Positions 2,331-36,045 of a stretch of 36,624 nucleotides of DNA are shown here, in pieces. The DNA lies in assembly GCA_025656505.1 (NCBI GenBank), contig JAHXHR010000022.1, positions 1 through 36,624 on the forward strand, given 5' to 3'. The position numbers and the translations under genes were made by a program. Under the pieces are notes generated by a model. It did not search any database. It saw only the letters and a list, made by a program, of their open reading frames with translations, and had not been told where the DNA came from. The number at the start of each line of letters is the position of its first letter. Position 1 is the first letter of the stretch. The stretch comes from Candidatus Thiodiazotropha sp. (ex Epidulcina cf. delphinae). Lineage in GTDB: Bacteria > Pseudomonadota > Gammaproteobacteria > Chromatiales > Chromatiaceae.

Positions 2331-2999
2331 ATGTATAAGAAAAAGCTATTGACCCTTGTGTTTGCGTCAATCCTCCCTCTCAGTCACACCCTCTACGCAG
2401 AGGAGGCGCAAGGCATGGAGACGGATGCGGTAGGATTGCCTGCCGCAACGGAGCCGGTGGATGACGCTGCCGGGTATCGTTGGCATGCCCGAGAAGAGCA
2501 GTACCAGGCGCTGAGAAAACGGGCGGAAGAAGCCGGCGTGATGTTGCCCGAACGTCCGCCATGGCGCCCTGTGCAGAATAGGCAGGCGTTTCGTCCCGGC
2601 ATGGAAGAGCGTATGCAACACCGTCAACGGATGATGTCGATGACTGACGAGGAGCGTGACGCCTATCGTCGGGAGCGCTATCTGGAGATGCGTGAACAGG
2701 CGCAAGAGATGGGGGTGGAGATGCCTGAAACCCCGCCTTGGGCGGCGCGCCGGCAGGCTTTGGATGAAGAGTGGGCCAAGCACCGGGAGGTCATCGAGGG
2801 GATGAGTGATGAAGAGCGGGCTGCCTGCCACGCCATGCATCGCCGTCACATGGGCATGATGCCTGGCAGGGGCATGGGTCATCATCGCGGCTGCGGCATG
2901 ATGGGACAGGGTGGTTGCAGCATGGGACCTGCTGTGCCGGGATATGGGTACGGTCCTGGTCCTTACGCGCCCTGGAATTTCCGGAATCCGAATCGATAG
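2331..2999 (+). CDS. Secreted Met/His-rich protein with two internal repeats, function unknown
   Basis: A 222-aa protein that I cannot assign to a named family. It starts at ATG 2331, with AAGGAG (2319-2324) 6 nt upstream. A signal peptide is clear (MYKKKLLTLV then hydrophobic, cut near LYAEE). The mature part holds two similar units: YQALRKRAEEAGVMLPERPPW (58-78; only its ends are diagnostic) and a copy at 117-137 ending MPETPPW. A second motif pair, MTDEERDAYR (104-113) and MSDEERAACH (158-167), alternates with them. Residues 171-200 are rich in Met, His, Gly and Cys (HRGCGMMGQGGCSMG), and the tail is Gly/Pro/Tyr/Asn. The composition suggests a periplasmic metal-binding or envelope-stress protein, by analogy with Spy/CpxP-like metal sensors. 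This is inference only. Confidence 0.75.
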   Translation: MYKKKLLTLVFASILPLSHTLYAEEAQGMETDAVGLPAATEPVDDAAGYRWHAREEQYQALRKRAEEAGVMLPERPPWRPVQNRQAFRPGMEERMQHRQRMMSMTDEERDAYRRERYLEMREQAQEMGVEMPETPPWAARRQALDEEWAKHREVIEGMSDEERAACHAMHRRHMGMMPGRGMGHHRGCGMMGQGGCSMGPAVPGYGYGPGPYAPWNFRNPNR

Positions 3000-3024
3000 C
3001 CGGGCATCTTTGGCGGGGAGTCGG

Positions 3025-3675
3025 TCAGGCATTCATTTCACGTAAGAGGTTCTCCGCTTCCCGGCGAGACAGGTAACGCCAGGGAAGCGGTATAAGCCCG
3101 GGGACGAGTTTCCGGTATTTCCGGTAGACCGCTCCGTGATAGAGCAACAGTTTGCGCTCTTCCAATCGGGATCCCAGGATCAGGTATAACGTGACCATGA
3201 TCGCCGAAACCAGCCGGGCGGCATCCATATCCTGGGTCCAGATCAGCAGTAGGCCGAGGCTGTACCAGGGATGGCGCACGAATCGGTGCATCGGGGAGAT
3301 ATACAGGCGCTCCTGGTCCCGTACATCCTGCAACTGTCGTTGCAGTTGCCGGATGCCAAGGAATTCACGACTGTCGTAATAGCTTAGCGAACGGAAGAAT
3401 CCTACGCCTGCCGACAGCATCACCCCATAGGCCAGCCAAGCGAAGGCCCCCTCCCAGCGCCACAAAGGTTCTGAGCGGAGCCACCACAGGGCGGCAATGG
3501 GGGGCAAGATGAGTATCACCGCCTGGACATTGAAGAGAATCCGGTACCAGGGCATCAGTGCCGGGTGGCGCACGGCAATCCGCTGCTTCAGCCACAGGGA
3601 GGCAAACAGGGAGTGGAGCAGAAAATAGCCCGGCCAGAGCAGAGCCGGCACTATCAAGTCAGCGGGTCCGGGCAT
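3025..3675 (-). CDS. ICMT/NnrU-like integral membrane methyltransferase family protein
   Basis: A 216-aa polytopic membrane protein with about four to five hydrophobic segments. The C-terminal half carries the hallmark of the isoprenylcysteine methyltransferase/phospholipid methyltransferase-like superfamily: RFVRHPWYSLGLLL (around 132-145), then a hydrophobic hairpin and SRLEERKLLLYHGAVYRKY. In that superfamily this region binds S-adenosylmethionine. The substrate of this member is unknown; possibilities include a lipid, a small thiol or NnrU-like roles. The ATG at 3675 lacks a strong Shine-Dalgarno. The gene converges with the Met/His-rich gene and is transcribed away from its own upstream neighbour ppk2 by only 45 bp, so the two could be co-transcribed. 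Confidence 0.75.
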   Translation of the reverse strand: MPGPADLIVPALLWPGYFLLHSLFASLWLKQRIAVRHPALMPWYRILFNVQAVILILPPIAALWWLRSEPLWRWEGAFAWLAYGVMLSAGVGFFRSLSYYDSREFLGIRQLQRQLQDVRDQERLYISPMHRFVRHPWYSLGLLLIWTQDMDAARLVSAIMVTLYLILGSRLEERKLLLYHGAVYRKYRKLVPGLIPLPWRYLSRREAENLLREMNA

Positions 3676-3720
3676 GGATGGTCGGCGGACCGGGCGGTTT
3701 GCGACGCCCGATCCGGTTCG

Positions 3721-4635
3721 TCAGCCGACGAACTTGCCCCGTTGCAGGCGCTGGGCCTCCATCAGTTCCAGCTCCCTGGAGCCGGAGATCACCACATCGG
3801 GATTGGGGACGAAATCCAGATCAGGCTGCATTCGTTCATAAGGGATCGAGTTGAGAATCACTTTCATGGCATTCACCCGCGCCATGTGTTTGTCATTGGA
3901 GCGGATGATGGTCCATGGGGCATGAGTGGTATGGGTGCGCTTCAGCATCTCATACTTCTGATTGGTGAACTCGTCCCAGCGATCCTGGGCCTGGACGTCG
4001 ATCTCCGATAATTTCCACTGCCGCAAGGGATCCGTTTTACGACGTTCGAACCGCCTTGCCTGCTCTTCCCTGGTGACTGAGAAGTAGAGCTTCACGAGGA
4101 TGGTCCCCTGTCGCACCAGGTCCTTCTCGAAGCCGGGGCAGCCGATCATGAAGTTGTCGTACTCCTCTTTGGTGCAGAATCCGAAAATGGGTTCAACGAC
4201 TGCACGGTTGTACCAACTGCGGTCGAACAGCACCGCCTCACCGCCTCGTGGACACTGAGCGACATATTTCTGGAAGAACCACTGGGTTTTTTGCACATCG
4301 CTGGGTTTACCGAGGGCGACCACCCGGTAGTGCTTTTCGTTCATGTAGCGTGTGACGCGCCGAATGGTGCCGCCCTTGCCGGCTGCGTCACGGCCTTCGA
4401 ACAAGATGATCATGCGCGTTCGCGTCTTTTCGAGATATTGTTGCACGCCGATCAGTTCGGCCTGGTAAGGTTTCAGTTCTTCCTCTCGCTTGAATCTGCG
4501 GATCGCCTTCTTTTCGATCTTCTGCTCCTGTTCGGTCCGGGTCTTGAGTCGCTTGTAGTCACTCAGCAATTCATCCAGCCTGACCGGCTGTTCATCGATG
4601 AAGATGGTTTCGGGATTATTGATTTCTTCATTCAT
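3721..4635 (-). CDS. ppk2: Polyphosphate kinase 2 family protein
   Basis: A 304-aa PPK2-family phosphotransferase, which transfers phosphate between polyphosphate and nucleoside phosphates. The fold is P-loop kinase-like. Walker A is GRDAAGKGG (81-89). The Walker B/lid motif is LFDRSWYNRA (136-145), followed by the lid helix RRFERRKTDPLRQWKLS. The length and the RxxxRRxTDPLxxWKLS motif fit class I PPK2, which typically favours (d)NDP/NTP interconversion. The exact nucleotide preference cannot be read. A GAGGGG Shine-Dalgarno sits before ATG 4635. The charged N-terminal 60 residues are probably a helical extension. Context suggests cytoplasmic phosphate/energy storage metabolism. Confidence 0.92.
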   Translation of the reverse strand: MNEEINNPETIFIDEQPVRLDELLSDYKRLKTRTEQEQKIEKKAIRRFKREEELKPYQAELIGVQQYLEKTRTRMIILFEGRDAAGKGGTIRRVTRYMNEKHYRVVALGKPSDVQKTQWFFQKYVAQCPRGGEAVLFDRSWYNRAVVEPIFGFCTKEEYDNFMIGCPGFEKDLVRQGTILVKLYFSVTREEQARRFERRKTDPLRQWKLSEIDVQAQDRWDEFTNQKYEMLKRTHTTHAPWTIIRSNDKHMARVNAMKVILNSIPYERMQPDLDFVPNPDVVISGSRELELMEAQRLQRGKFVG

Positions 4636-11584: not shown

Positions 11585-11873
11585 CCTAAAAACCGTAGTT
11601 GACCGCTCCATTCTGATACCAAGCTACTGATAGGCAAACGATTGACTTCGATTTGCCTATTCACCTGCCGGGTGAACCAGGCTACGGGGTGAATGGCACG
11701 CTTGCGGTGGCGCATGGCTGCGTTGCAACGCCTTGGAATAGCATGACGATTCCGCGTCATTGCGCGCCGTGCAGGGATGCACAAGTGTCGCAAGCACAGG
11801 GATGTGCAGGAGCGACCCTTGCCCTGCACCCCCGCAAGCGCACACTTCACCCCGTCCAACTGCGGTTTTTAGG
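11585..11873. mobile_element. MITE-like element, family E1 copy A (complete)
   Basis: A 289-bp element whose ends are inverted: CCTAAAAACCGTAGTTG at the left and CAACTGCGGTTTTTAGG at the right (one mismatch). ATAAA stands on both sides (11580-11584, 11874-11878), fitting a 5-bp target-site duplication. Internally it carries TTCACCTGCCGGGTGAA, the palindrome GCGTTGCAACGC, the hairpin GGAATAG-catga-CGATTCC (11735-11753), and alternating GTGCAGGGATGCAC-type motifs. No transposase is encoded. It matches copy D (29232-29495) nearly throughout, apart from a short internal duplication around CACAAGTGTCGCAAGCACAG. Confidence 0.85.
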
Positions 11874-11919: not shown

Positions 11920-12779
11920 TTAGAAACGCGCTCCAATAGTCAACATGAAGTCACTGGCAAGGATATCCTCTTGAGAGGGTCGTCTGGCGAAATATTCATT
12001 ATTCTGCGCAGTTAAAAAAGTCACCTCAGTACTATCATAACTCAAGTTTCGGCGTTCAAATTCAACTCGTTTCCATGTTCTATGTGGGAACGCATGATGT
12101 GAACAGGGCGTAGGGTGCGGCCTTGCCGCACCATGCTGGGTTGCGCTCCTGTTTGCTATGGCGGGTTTTTTCACTTTGCGACCCCCTGACCCATACCTTG
12201 GGTTCCAGGGCTTCAAGTTACGGTGCGGCAGGGCCACACCCTACGAAGCTCGTAGAATATGGGAACGGGACGAACTCCGAAACTTGAGTCATAAGATGCC
12301 TCCATAAAAAAGTTAACCGAGTCGTTGGGTTCGCCGAGTTCAAAGCCGAGTGCGCCAATCGCTCCGACATCGGTCCCGTCTACCAGATAATCTCCGTCAT
12401 TGATATGAAAACTGGCGCCGACCCGCGCATATGGGCGAAAGTAGGATGAGGAGAAAAAACCATAGCCTATAGAGAGTTGGATGGGAACGTCATAATATTC
12501 CACATCACCGAATATTAGAACGAGAGGCCCTACGCCGGCATCCAGGCGAAAACCGGAATCGAAAAGCCCTGCGAACCGGTAGGAGAGCCCGATAGGCACG
12601 CCGCTTAGTTCGTCGTCCAGAAGCAGGTTGTCTTCGTGCCAGTCCCATATGTTCTTTGCTCCTGATACATAGGAGAATCCAATGTAGTGTGCTGATCCGG
12701 CGGACAGTAAGGCCCCGGAATATGCAGTAAGGAGGATTGTTATTGTAAGGGCCGGAATTAATCTCCTGGAATACTTCAT
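11920..12779 (-). pseudogene. Outer-membrane beta-barrel protein gene split by a MITE-like element
   Basis: The 5' part (12779 down to about 12289) encodes a signal peptide (MKYSRRLIPALTITILLTAY...) and amphipathic beta strands such as HYIGFSYVSG and YFRPYARVGASF. The current frame runs into an inserted element and stops at 12213, giving a 188-aa product with a foreign tail (WPCRTVT). The 3' part (12040 down to 11920) encodes EYFARRPSQEDILASDFMLT and ends IGARF-stop. Removing 12041-12288 plus one TCATAA copy joins the two parts in frame at residues SYDSTEV. That gives a 201-aa protein with a C-terminal Phe, the usual signature recognised by the BAM complex. The restored product is probably a small outer-membrane barrel of unknown ligand. 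Confidence 0.82.
12041..12288. mobile_element. MITE-like element, family E3, inserted in the barrel gene
   Basis: A 248-bp element with terminal inverted repeats CTCAAGTTTCGGCGTTC (12041-12057) and its near complement at 12272-12288 (16 of 17). It is flanked by a 6-bp duplication TCATAA (12035-12040 and 12289-12294). Inside lies an inverted pair of GTAGGGTGCGGC...GCCGCACC hairpins (about 12111-12134 and 12222-12244). It has no coding capacity for a transposase. The insertion site is within codons of the outer-membrane barrel gene. Confidence 0.85.
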
Positions 12780-12886: not shown

Positions 12887-15094
12887 TTAAAGCATCTCTT
12901 GCGGATCCACGTCGATCGACCAGCGCACCCGGCGTGAGGCGGGTAACGCGGTGATGCCGGGAACCCATTTCACCAACCAATGATGCAATGCCTGTCGTTG
13001 CGCTGATTGAATCAGCAGATGGGCGCGGGTCTTGCCCGCTTTTCGCTCCATCGGTGCGGGAACAGGCCCCCAGAATTCAACTGCGGCGGCGCCGGTTATC
13101 TCTTTGCCGATCCGCATCGCCTGAGTAAGAAACGTCTCTGGGTCGGATGCCTTGGTCGATTCGGCGCGTAGCAATACTTGGTGAGAGTAGGGGGGGAGCA
13201 CCGCCATCCTGCGCTCATCGAGGGCCTCCTTGGCGAAGGCCGTGTAACCCTTGGTGGTCAGGAGTTGCATCAAGGGATGATCAGGGTGGCGTGTCTGTAT
13301 CAGCACCTTGCCTGGGCGTTCGGCCCTGCCGGCCCTGCCGGCCACCTGCAGAACCAGTTGCGCCATCCGCTCGGATGCGCGGAAGTCGGCGCCGAACAAG
13401 CCATGATCCACATCAAGGATGGCGACCAGGGTGACCAAGGGGAAATGGTGGCCCTTTGCCAGTATCTGAGTACCCAGCAGCAGGGGGTAGTGTCCTGTTT
13501 TTGCCTCTCCGAGGAGCTTCTCGAGTGTGCCCTTGCGGCTGGTGGAGTCACGATCGATCCTTGCCAACGGCGTCTCGGGGAAGCGGCGCTGCAGCGTCTC
13601 CTCGATACGTTCGGTTCCCTGTCCCAGAGGGCGTAGATCGGGACTGCCGCAATCAGGGCAGTGCGCCGGCACTTGGCGTTGATGCCCGCAGTGGTGACAC
13701 CAGAGCAGTTGTTGTTGCCGGTGATGGGTCATGCGCGCATCGCAGCGGGGACAGTCGGTGAGCCAGCCGCAGGCATGGCAGGTGATCATCGGCGCATAGC
13801 CGCGGCGATTGAGAAACAGCATTGCCTGTTCGCCGGTTGCAAGCGTCTGCCTGAGTTGCTTGAGCAGGGCCGGGGAGAGACCGCCGTCGAGATGTACGCT
13901 GCGGATATCCAACAGTCGGAGTTGCGGCATGCGCGCCCCAGCCGCGCGCCGGGGGAGACTCAACCGATGGTAACGGCCCTCATCGGCGTTGCGCAGGGAC
14001 TCCAGGGATGGGGTGGCGGAGCCGAGCACCACCGGGCAGTCGCACTGCTGCGCACGCACCAGCGAGAGGTCTCTTGCGGAATAGCGGAAGCCCTCCTGCT
14101 GTTTGTAAGAGAGGTCGTGTTCCTCGTCGACGATGATCAGGCCGAGCGCGGGCATGGGGGTGAACACGGCGGAGCGAGTGCCGACGACGACCTTTTTTTC
14201 TGACCGGCGCATGGCCTGCCAGACCCGTTCCCGTTCACCGTCCGAGAGTCCGGAGTGCAGCACCGCCACCCCTGCGCCGATCTGCTCCTTGAAACGTTGC
14301 AGCAGTTGCGGGGTAAGGCCGATTTCCGGCACCAACACCAGGGCTTGTTGCCGGCGCGCCAGGACGGCTTCGATCAGATACAGGTAGACCTCTGTCTTGC
14401 CGCTACCCGTGACGCCGTGAAGCAGAAAGGGCTTGAATCGTCCCAGATGGGCGCAGGTTTCATCCACGGCGGATTGCTGGTCCGGATTGAGTTTGTGTCT
14501 TGGCGTCGCCGGTGGAACCGACTCGACCACCGGTTCAATTTGGCAGGTTTCGATCCAGCCTTTGTCCGATAAGCGACGCAATACGGCGGGAGAGGCTTCG
14601 CAGCCGTCGGAAAGGGCTGACTTGGCCATGCCCTCGGGTGTTTCAGCCAGGGCTTGGATGACTGCGAGCTGTTTAGGGGCGCGGAGCAGTGTTTCGGAGT
14701 TCACTGCCTGTCCTGCCGTTGTCAGGCGTAGACCTACGGGCTTGCTGACGGATGGTGACCGGCCTTTTCTCAGATTGCCGGGAAGGGCGAGAAAGATCAC
14801 ATCGCCGAACGGGTGTTGATAGTAGTCCGCAGCCCAGCGCAGTAAACGGATGTCACTTTCTTGCAGTAACGGGGCCGGGTCGAGTTGCTCCAGAACCCGT
14901 TTCAAACGATCTGCGGGGATCGTGCTCCGGGCGGTGAGCCTAATCAGCAGACCGGTACGGCTGCCACGCCCGAAAGGGACTTGGAAGCGGCTGCCGGGCA
15001 ACAACGGGTGGGAATGATGCTTGGGTGGAAGGTAGTCGAAGAGTGTCCGCAAAGGGCCGGGTAGGGCGATCTGAAGAATGGGTGCTGAAACCAT
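12887..15094 (-). CDS. priA: Primosomal protein N' (replication restart helicase PriA)
   Basis: A 735-aa PriA, a typical full-length enzyme. PriA is the 3'-to-5' superfamily 2 helicase that recognises stalled forks and loads the replisome with PriB/DnaT/DnaC. The N-terminal 3'-DNA-binding domain comes first (LPGPLRTLFDYLPP). Walker A GVTGSGKT is at 227-234 and the DEEH box at 323-326. The zinc-binding insertion has paired cysteines (CHACG, CPRC, CHHCG, CPDCG, roughly 440-485). Helicase motif V/VI includes GTQILAKGHHFP and VAGRAGRAERPG. The ATG at 15094 gives the expected N-terminus. The 3' end runs to the region just before the barrel gene on the same strand. Confidence 0.97.
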   Translation of the reverse strand: MVSAPILQIALPGPLRTLFDYLPPKHHSHPLLPGSRFQVPFGRGSRTGLLIRLTARSTIPADRLKRVLEQLDPAPLLQESDIRLLRWAADYYQHPFGDVIFLALPGNLRKGRSPSVSKPVGLRLTTAGQAVNSETLLRAPKQLAVIQALAETPEGMAKSALSDGCEASPAVLRRLSDKGWIETCQIEPVVESVPPATPRHKLNPDQQSAVDETCAHLGRFKPFLLHGVTGSGKTEVYLYLIEAVLARRQQALVLVPEIGLTPQLLQRFKEQIGAGVAVLHSGLSDGERERVWQAMRRSEKKVVVGTRSAVFTPMPALGLIIVDEEHDLSYKQQEGFRYSARDLSLVRAQQCDCPVVLGSATPSLESLRNADEGRYHRLSLPRRAAGARMPQLRLLDIRSVHLDGGLSPALLKQLRQTLATGEQAMLFLNRRGYAPMITCHACGWLTDCPRCDARMTHHRQQQLLWCHHCGHQRQVPAHCPDCGSPDLRPLGQGTERIEETLQRRFPETPLARIDRDSTSRKGTLEKLLGEAKTGHYPLLLGTQILAKGHHFPLVTLVAILDVDHGLFGADFRASERMAQLVLQVAGRAGRAERPGKVLIQTRHPDHPLMQLLTTKGYTAFAKEALDERRMAVLPPYSHQVLLRAESTKASDPETFLTQAMRIGKEITGAAAVEFWGPVPAPMERKAGKTRAHLLIQSAQRQALHHWLVKWVPGITALPASRRVRWSIDVDPQEML

Positions 15095-16449: not shown

Positions 16450-16542
16450 TTTCACCCGGCAGGTGAATAGGCAAATCGCAGTCAATAGTTTGCCTATCAG
16501 TAGTTTAGTATCAGGATGGAGCGGTCAACTGCGGTTTTTAGG
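16450..16542 (-). repeat. Family E1 fragment, copy B (left end only, inverted)
   Basis: Read on the minus strand, this segment matches the first 93 or so bases of copies A and D: it begins CCTAAAAACCGCAGTTGACC and runs to CACCTGCCGGGTGAA. The right half of the element and its inverted repeat are missing. It sits in the roughly 100-bp gap between the convergent fructosamine-kinase gene and hisC, with the element end 1 nt from the hisC stop. Confidence 0.75.
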
Positions 16543-29231: not shown

Positions 29232-29495
29232 CCTAAAAGCCGCAGTTGACCGCTCCATTCTGATACTGAACTACTGATATGCAAGCTATTAACTTCGATT
29301 TGTCTATTCACCGGTTGGGTGAACCACGCTACGGGGCGAATTGCGCGCTTGCGGGGGCGCATGGCTGCGTTGCAACGCCTTGGAATAGCATGACGATTCC
29401 GCGTCATTGCGCGCCGTGCAGGGATGCACAGGAGCGACCCTTGCCCTGCACCCCGGCAAACGCACACTTCACCCCGTCCAACTGCGGTTTTTAGG
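29232..29495. mobile_element. MITE-like element, family E1 copy D (complete)
   Basis: A 264-bp element with inverted ends CCTAAAAGCCGCAGTTG and CAACTGCGGTTTTTAGG and a 5-bp target duplication ATAAT (29227-29231, 29496-29500). It has the same internal order as copy A (11585-11873), including the GGAATAG-catga-CGATTCC hairpin, but lacks that copy's short internal duplication. It separates a DUF3301 gene from a macrodomain gene. The right duplication supplies part of the ATG of the macrodomain gene. Confidence 0.87.
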
Positions 29496-35605: not shown

Positions 35606-35679
35606 GCGGGTATCGTATATCGGTATTACCCTGGCTTCCCAAGCCGGAGAGACGGGTTCGACTCCCGTTACCCGCTCCA
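35606..35679 (+). tRNA. tRNA-Gly (anticodon CCC)
   Basis: A full cloverleaf can be drawn. The acceptor stem GCGGGTA/TACCCGC (35606-35612, 35669-35675) is perfect. The D-arm has GTA/TAC with a GG in the loop. The anticodon stem CTGGC/GCCGG encloses loop TTCCCAA with anticodon CCC at 35638-35640. The T-arm ACGGG/CCCGT has loop TTCGACT. The terminal CCA is encoded (35677-35679). It matches the bacterial glycine tRNA reading GGG. Elements with phage-like features follow directly. Confidence 0.95.
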
Positions 35680-35826: not shown

Positions 35827-36045
35827 GCCTGAAAATATTCAGGCCGGGATTGGAACCCCGCAATGCACAAGGGCCATAAAGACGCTCTGCGTCTTTTTTT
35901 ATGGCCGACCCACTATGGTGGGTTGTACAGGGCACCTTCGGGTGGCCGTTTCCTTGTGTGCGGTAGTCTCAACCCTGTACAGCTCGCCACCCTTAGATTG
36001 AGACCTTTTGGTGGCGATTATATTAATGCTACACACAAGGGCTAA
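35827..36045 (+). ncRNA. Structured leader around an Ash-like ORF (hairpins and possible pseudoknot)
   Basis: Several complementary segments are visible. GCCTGAA-AATA-TTCAGGC forms a hairpin at 35827-35844. GGCCATAAA-GACGC-TCT-GCGTC-TTTTTTT-ATGGCC forms a terminator-like hairpin at 35872-35906. CCTTGTGTG (35952-35960) pairs with CACACAAGG (36032-36040). Within that, GTCTCAA (35966-35972) pairs with TTGAGAC (35998-36004), and TCGCCACC (35984-35991) pairs with GGTGGCGA (36010-36017). The last two helices cross, which would make a pseudoknot. Phage P4-like leaders are known to use structured RNA for immunity control. That parallel is inference here. Confidence 0.45.
35863..36045 (+). CDS. Ash-like phage protein (short)
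   Basis: A 60-aa reading frame. Its C-terminal part, NPVQLATLRLRPFGGDYINA followed by THKG, resembles the conserved end of phage Ash family proteins (P4-like satellites; often annotated Ash or Icd-like). The N-terminal part passes through a terminator-like hairpin. There is no good Shine-Dalgarno at ATG 35863, so the start is uncertain. The gene lies between tRNA-Gly and an IS3-family insertion, as expected at the edge of a tRNA-integrated element. The same DNA folds strongly, so both protein and RNA roles are possible. Confidence 0.5.
   Translation: MHKGHKDALRLFLWPTHYGGLYRAPSGGRFLVCGSLNPVQLATLRLRPFGGDYINATHKG

Follow-up and report, generated by a model that had tools for sequence, protein, structure and literature searches.

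A type I MITE very probably splits a putative outer-membrane barrel gene in a Candidatus Thiodiazotropha genome

Introduction

In the window, by which we mean the whole stretch of 36,624 nucleotides analyzed here (Candidatus Thiodiazotropha sp. (ex Epidulcina cf. delphinae), contig JAHXHR010000022.1), a gene on the minus strand is broken near its 3' end, and the locus raises the question of what broke it, by which machinery, and what would remain of the gene product. A first-pass annotation had described a 248-bp element between two copies of TCATAA inside this gene, had proposed that the element moved recently, and had pointed to relatives and to the rest of the genome as the places where an uninterrupted allele and further copies should be sought. 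In the following, G000 is the window's own genome and G019 a same-genus genome, in a comparison set that holds one genome per species. The explanation that we favor with high confidence is that a type I miniature inverted-repeat transposable element (MITE; element A), moved in trans by an IS4/ISPepr1-like transposase, split the barrel gene and removed its last 38 residues.

Results

The interrupting element and the empty allele

Element A spans 12041-12288 (plus strand, the orientation being arbitrary), precisely the bases first proposed, and is flanked by TCATAA at 12035-12040 on the left and at 12289-12294 on the right. Its terminal inverted repeats are CTCAAGTTTCGGCGTTC (12041-12057, plus strand) and, as read on the minus strand, CTCAAGTTTCGGAGTTC (12272-12288), which can be written together as CTCAAGTTTCGG[C/A]GTTC. 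The 17-bp inverted ends of the earlier description lie where it had placed them, but with one mismatch (16/17 positions). A reading of 250 bp with a CATA duplication, in which the flanking A and T lengthen the inverted repeat by one base, was rejected because copies with other flanks (TAAACAT, for example) set the boundary at CTCAAG. None of the reading frames inside the 248 bp is a transposase frame, and together with the multiple copies, the inverted ends and the flanking duplications this is the pattern of a non-autonomous MITE. At full length the element is predicted to fold into a single long hairpin (-127.8 kcal/mol, z -9.81), with 0 of 200 shuffles equally stable. An inner inverted repeat of the CGTAGGGTGCGGC type lies within it, with one arm at 12109-12132 (plus strand) and its partner at 12222-12245 (minus strand), and copies of this unit are scattered through further genomes of the genus. 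When element A was used as a query, 20 of the 22 genus genomes gave matches at E ≤ 0.001, G000 and G019 included; among the matches listed, those outside these two genomes fall on the inner CGTAGGGTGCGGC type unit.

The element divides the gene into a 5' part of 163 codons (12291-12779, minus strand), whose protein is 91% identical to that of G019, and a severed 3' part of 38 codons plus stop (DSTEVTF...IGARF; 11920-12036, minus strand), which stands in the frame matching the 5' part. The present reading frame runs across the junction (12213-12779, minus strand) and encodes 188 residues, the final 25 of which lie past the junction and come after the last conserved tyrosine. Upstream, at 12887-15094 on the minus strand, is a gene that we take to be priA-like, which occupies the same position beside the G019 allele; the 1269 bp compared are 92.2% identical at the DNA level.

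The uninterrupted allele is present at this syntenic site. The G019 gene (L133 1501-2106) encodes 201 residues ending in GARF, the length and the terminal Phe foreseen when the 163 and 38 codons are joined in frame. A single TTATGA (TCATAA on the other strand) is found at L133 1986-1991 and is covered by both flank alignments, in which the window and G019 share 91% DNA identity (528/580) on one side and 93% (113/121) on the other. Moreover, the intact G019 protein as a query returns two matches in the window, residues 1-166 and 161-201, which flank the element. On these alignments, L133 1986-1991 is the empty site.

Uninterrupted homologues are also found in G005 (67% over residues 12-163) and in G065 (47% over residues 18-201), and the G019 and G005 proteins both have the 38-residue C-terminal stretch that closes with Phe. 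The gene is rare among the genomes compared, the 5' part being matched in 3 of the 22 of the genus and the intact protein in 4 of the 210 of the family, in both cases with the window's genome included. Relatives that share the interruption with conserved codons, or a restored protein devoid of homologues, had been named as outcomes contrary to an insertion; neither is seen in the genomes compared.

Copies of the element and their duplications

A search of G000 with element A (best 40 of 105 candidates scored) gave 68 listed matches, nine of them covering positions 1-248 at ≥94% identity. Seven full-length copies among the matches listed are 99.6-100% identical. Two of these, at C70:21214 and C11:45184, share their flanks (663 bp at 99.5%) and were taken as one, so that six distinct insertions remain. 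Each of the six carries an exact duplication of 6-7 bp (TCATAA, TGATAA, TAATAA, TTACAA, TTTTAA and TAAACAT). The further copies with 6-bp duplications that had been sought in the genome are thereby found, and the 6-bp duplication itself is exact in the window, but other copies can have 7 bp. An 86-bp form of the element is present in three copies, two with exact duplications. G019 contains at least 35 copies of full length, with identities of 90-93% (best 35 of 164 candidates scored), and exact duplications flank 14 of the 21 whose flanks were examined.

Searching G000 for the pattern of the ends revealed many further paired ends about 246 bp apart. These define family B (246 bp), which has the same ends as element A and an interior that shows no match to A beyond them; 15 of its 17 distinct copies among the G000 loci examined have exact 6-7 bp duplications. 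Altogether, an exact 6-7 bp flanking repeat is present at 43 of the 64 end-bounded elements in the loci examined and absent at 21, and in a control with swapped flanks 103 of 4032 pairs share ≥5 bp. Among the 21 elements devoid of a duplication are four A copies of G000, which are older or shortened, 7 of the 21 G019 copies, and 6 of the 10 pairings that come from other genomes, nested or partial in some cases.

Twelve A copies (L012, L050, L166-L168, L172, L173, L175, L176 and L178-L180) keep the left end and stop between positions 204 and 216. Their boundary is exactly CCCTACGAAACT in seven of the twelve, with unrelated sequence beyond it, and L050 has its flanks in common with L166 in the other genome. 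These copies may have a different right end, or loss at one end may have recurred.

The partner insertion sequence

Patterns built on an end found at a contig edge matched in 8 of the 210 family genomes in one search and at 13 stretches in another, and led to L219, where ends of the same type bound 1,664 bp (2612-4275) that hold a transposase split into two frames. In a family relative, G099, the corresponding element (L223, 209-1872) is also of 1,664 bp, carries CTCAAGTTTCGGAGTTC at both ends and encodes an intact transposase of 495 aa. The right end of element A is identical to the ends of this insertion sequence over 17 bp, and the left end at 16/17. With the N-terminal part of the L219 transposase (297 aa) as query, relatives were detected at E ≤ 1e-20 in 13 of the 210 family genomes, and no match was obtained in the G000 or G019 assemblies at the same threshold.

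The L223 transposase scores 285.5 with the NCBIfam model IS4_4 (cut-off 250), and that of the more distant L225 falls just below, at 248.3; the IS701 models are also matched, more weakly but clearly. A YREK motif has an expected spacing of Y-2-R-3-E-6-K, and one was read by eye in the L223 frame as YALRWGIEVYFKEAK. Both L223 ends carry CTCAAGTTTCGGA, fitting the ISPepr1 end consensus YT-AA-YTT---A. G181 has two complete copies that are more distant (L225 and L236; 1,676 bp, ends CTCACGTTTCGGAGTTC), and these are flanked by exact 7-bp duplications, TTTCTTT and CTACTAT, respectively, and inspection of the flanks of L219, L223 and L229 showed no matching duplication. A sequence search of the PDB with the transposase returned no match at E up to 1, and a scan of viral contigs for the end pattern gave one contig edge. 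IS1634, with AT-rich duplications of 5-6 bp, was considered as the partner and rejected because the insertion sequence sharing these ends matches IS4_4 and has the YREK motif. Also, a scan for paired ends shows no end pair at the loci of the five PF01609 matches in G000, all of which are above the cut-off.

In G000, the ends of the insertion sequence appear at contig edges. The 5' end is matched by C74 at 82-89%, and C74 is identical to C83 over 90 bases; the 3' end is matched by C66 at 82-83% over about 126 bases, and C33 has a near-identical 3' end. It is from these four edges only that we infer the presence of the insertion sequence in G000, and ends confined to contig edges would fit a repeat collapsed in assembly. 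At the C66 end (L070), an apparent orfA, presumably of IS3 type, lies roughly 150 bp beyond the IS 3' end, which suggests that one copy of the insertion sequence is itself interrupted there. In G019, the only copy found is a 144-bp internal deletion derivative (L182, C4:146019-146162), whose pieces match IS positions 1363-1328 and 836-804. Single ends in this genome were also checked for an autonomous element, and all 17 regions taken contain A copies, mostly truncated.

Whether a different transposase moved element A is the alternative that retains most weight, and we consider it improbable. The occurrence of 6-bp duplications beside those of 7 bp, the IS701 matches and a G000 assembly in which the search at E ≤ 1e-20 detected no such transposase would all be compatible with it. 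Nonetheless, the agreement of both ends with the insertion sequence and the 7-bp duplications seen in both the insertion sequence and the MITEs argue for the IS4/ISPepr1-like enzyme.

Age of the insertion and fate of the gene

The window copy of element A is identical to one young G000 copy and has a single difference over 248 bases from each of four others. The six young G000 copies and 21 G019 copies share a mean identity of 91.5% (126 pairs), and between the two genomes dS is 0.23 for the 5' part of the gene, 0.23 for the 3' part and 0.29 for the priA-like part. Since the copies differ at 0-1 of 248 positions, against a dS of 0.23-0.29 between the genomes, the insertion would be much younger than the split of G000 and G019, in keeping with the recent move proposed from the window. 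The 3' part likewise appears undecayed, as had been stated, with a dN/dS of 0.15 against G019 on 38 codons only (5.0 synonymous and 3.0 nonsynonymous differences), and this low value would come mostly from the time before the insertion.

Concerning the product, a protein that is about 200 aa long, has a hydrophobic N-terminus and ends in Phe is weakly likened to outer-membrane barrels through the Pfam family PF13505 (OMP_b-brl, cut-off 28.7): the G005 homologue lies above the cut-off (30.1), whereas the G019 allele reaches 23.7 and the window 5' part 22.2, both under it. In barrels, the terminal Phe is normally required for outer-membrane assembly. The split gene lacks the C-terminal 38 residues, terminal Phe included, and is most likely a null allele.

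There is only a slim chance that the allele is not simply null, and that the fused 188-residue frame or precise excision provides an altered surface protein or a switchable gene. Slippage is known to excise DNA where short direct repeats enclose a long palindrome. The element could be imagined to switch a surface barrel slowly: with its strong palindrome and the exact 6-bp repeats at its borders it would be lost precisely, and part of the population would keep the intact gene, a scenario to which we give equally little credit. The undecayed 3' part, with its dN/dS of 0.15 on 38 codons, would agree with such a gene; however, recency alone explains the absence of decay, and the fused frame is devoid of the very residues, terminal Phe included, that the G019 and G005 homologues have in common. 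The least probable reading is that the element is genuine and its place in the barrel gene an assembly error, the multi-copy 248-bp repeat having joined wrong flanks: the G000 assembly does comprise 159 contigs, several with edges within about 90-140 bp of such ends, but G019 joins the two flanks directly across one TCATAA and the duplication in the window is exact, a combination that a chimera is unlikely to yield.

Other features of the window

A different repeat family, of about 289 bp and with ends CCTAAAAACCGCAGTTG, is represented at 11585-11873, just downstream of the interrupted gene, and at 29232-29495, with single ends at 16526, 28730 and 35731. Duplications of 5 bp accompany it (ATAAA and ATAAT in the window; TTTAA, TTCAT and TTGAA at three of five other pairs), and 48 matches were listed in G000 (best 40 of 270 candidates scored). 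Towards the end of the window, matches to the Rfam families isrK and C4 antisense RNA above the gathering score (35827-35899 and 35911-35994) lie near a tRNA at 35606-35676, and this region is possibly a phage remnant.

Discussion

A sequence of events for the preferred explanation, mobilization of element A in trans, can be proposed from these comparisons. The IS4-like transposase would bind the ends that element A shares with the insertion sequence, the element would then enter the AT-rich TCATAA near the 3' end of the barrel gene, and gap repair would duplicate the six target bases. The gene now encodes 188 residues, devoid of the 38 C-terminal ones and of the terminal Phe, and would very likely be inactive.

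The pair of filled and empty alleles, exact to the base, provides a natural example of a MITE burst in a family that includes Sedimenticola and a tubeworm symbiont. Moreover, common ends link families A and B, MITEs whose interiors differ, to one IS4-type insertion sequence. This helps the annotation of such genomes, whose contigs often break near these elements; the principle is not new. Disruption of a gene by a MITE is already known in kind, and what stands out here is that the proof is unusually complete. The family of element A is new to the literature searched: no description of it or of the ends CTCAAGTTTCGG was found in the open-licence literature, and an earlier account elsewhere is possible.

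Compared with type I bacterial MITEs, element A is likewise short and non-coding, with inverted ends, target duplications, many copies and termini shared with an insertion sequence; it differs in an interior that holds two arms of a widely dispersed palindromic unit of the CGTAGGGTGCGGC type. As for the partner, the ISPepr1 subgroup of IS4 is described, in the excerpt of PMC2266710 used here, by the end consensus YT-AA-YTT---A, AT-rich targets, duplications of 7-8 bp and a size of 1,500-1,600 bp. The insertion sequence reported here resembles that description in its terminal consensus, YREK motif and AT-rich targets; 7-bp duplications flank two complete copies, L225 and L236, and no matching ones flank L219, L223 or L229. 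However, it is longer (1,664-1,676 bp), and because its size falls outside the listed range we name it ISPepr1-like and do not assign it as a member. Also, the MITE duplications are often of 6 bp, element A has no transposase, and its left end has C instead of A at consensus position 13.

Finally, a comparison can be made with the gene-disrupting MITEs of Anabaena sp. 90. According to the portion of PMC3542288 available to us, 15 of the 147 MITEs of that genome lie within disrupted ORFs, and they are short structured elements of 77-541 bp, as element A is also a short structured element that breaks an ORF. Nevertheless, the same portion calls the Anabaena elements type II, with no evident similarity to the ends of that genome's insertion sequences, whereas for element A a family of insertion sequences with matching ends was found.
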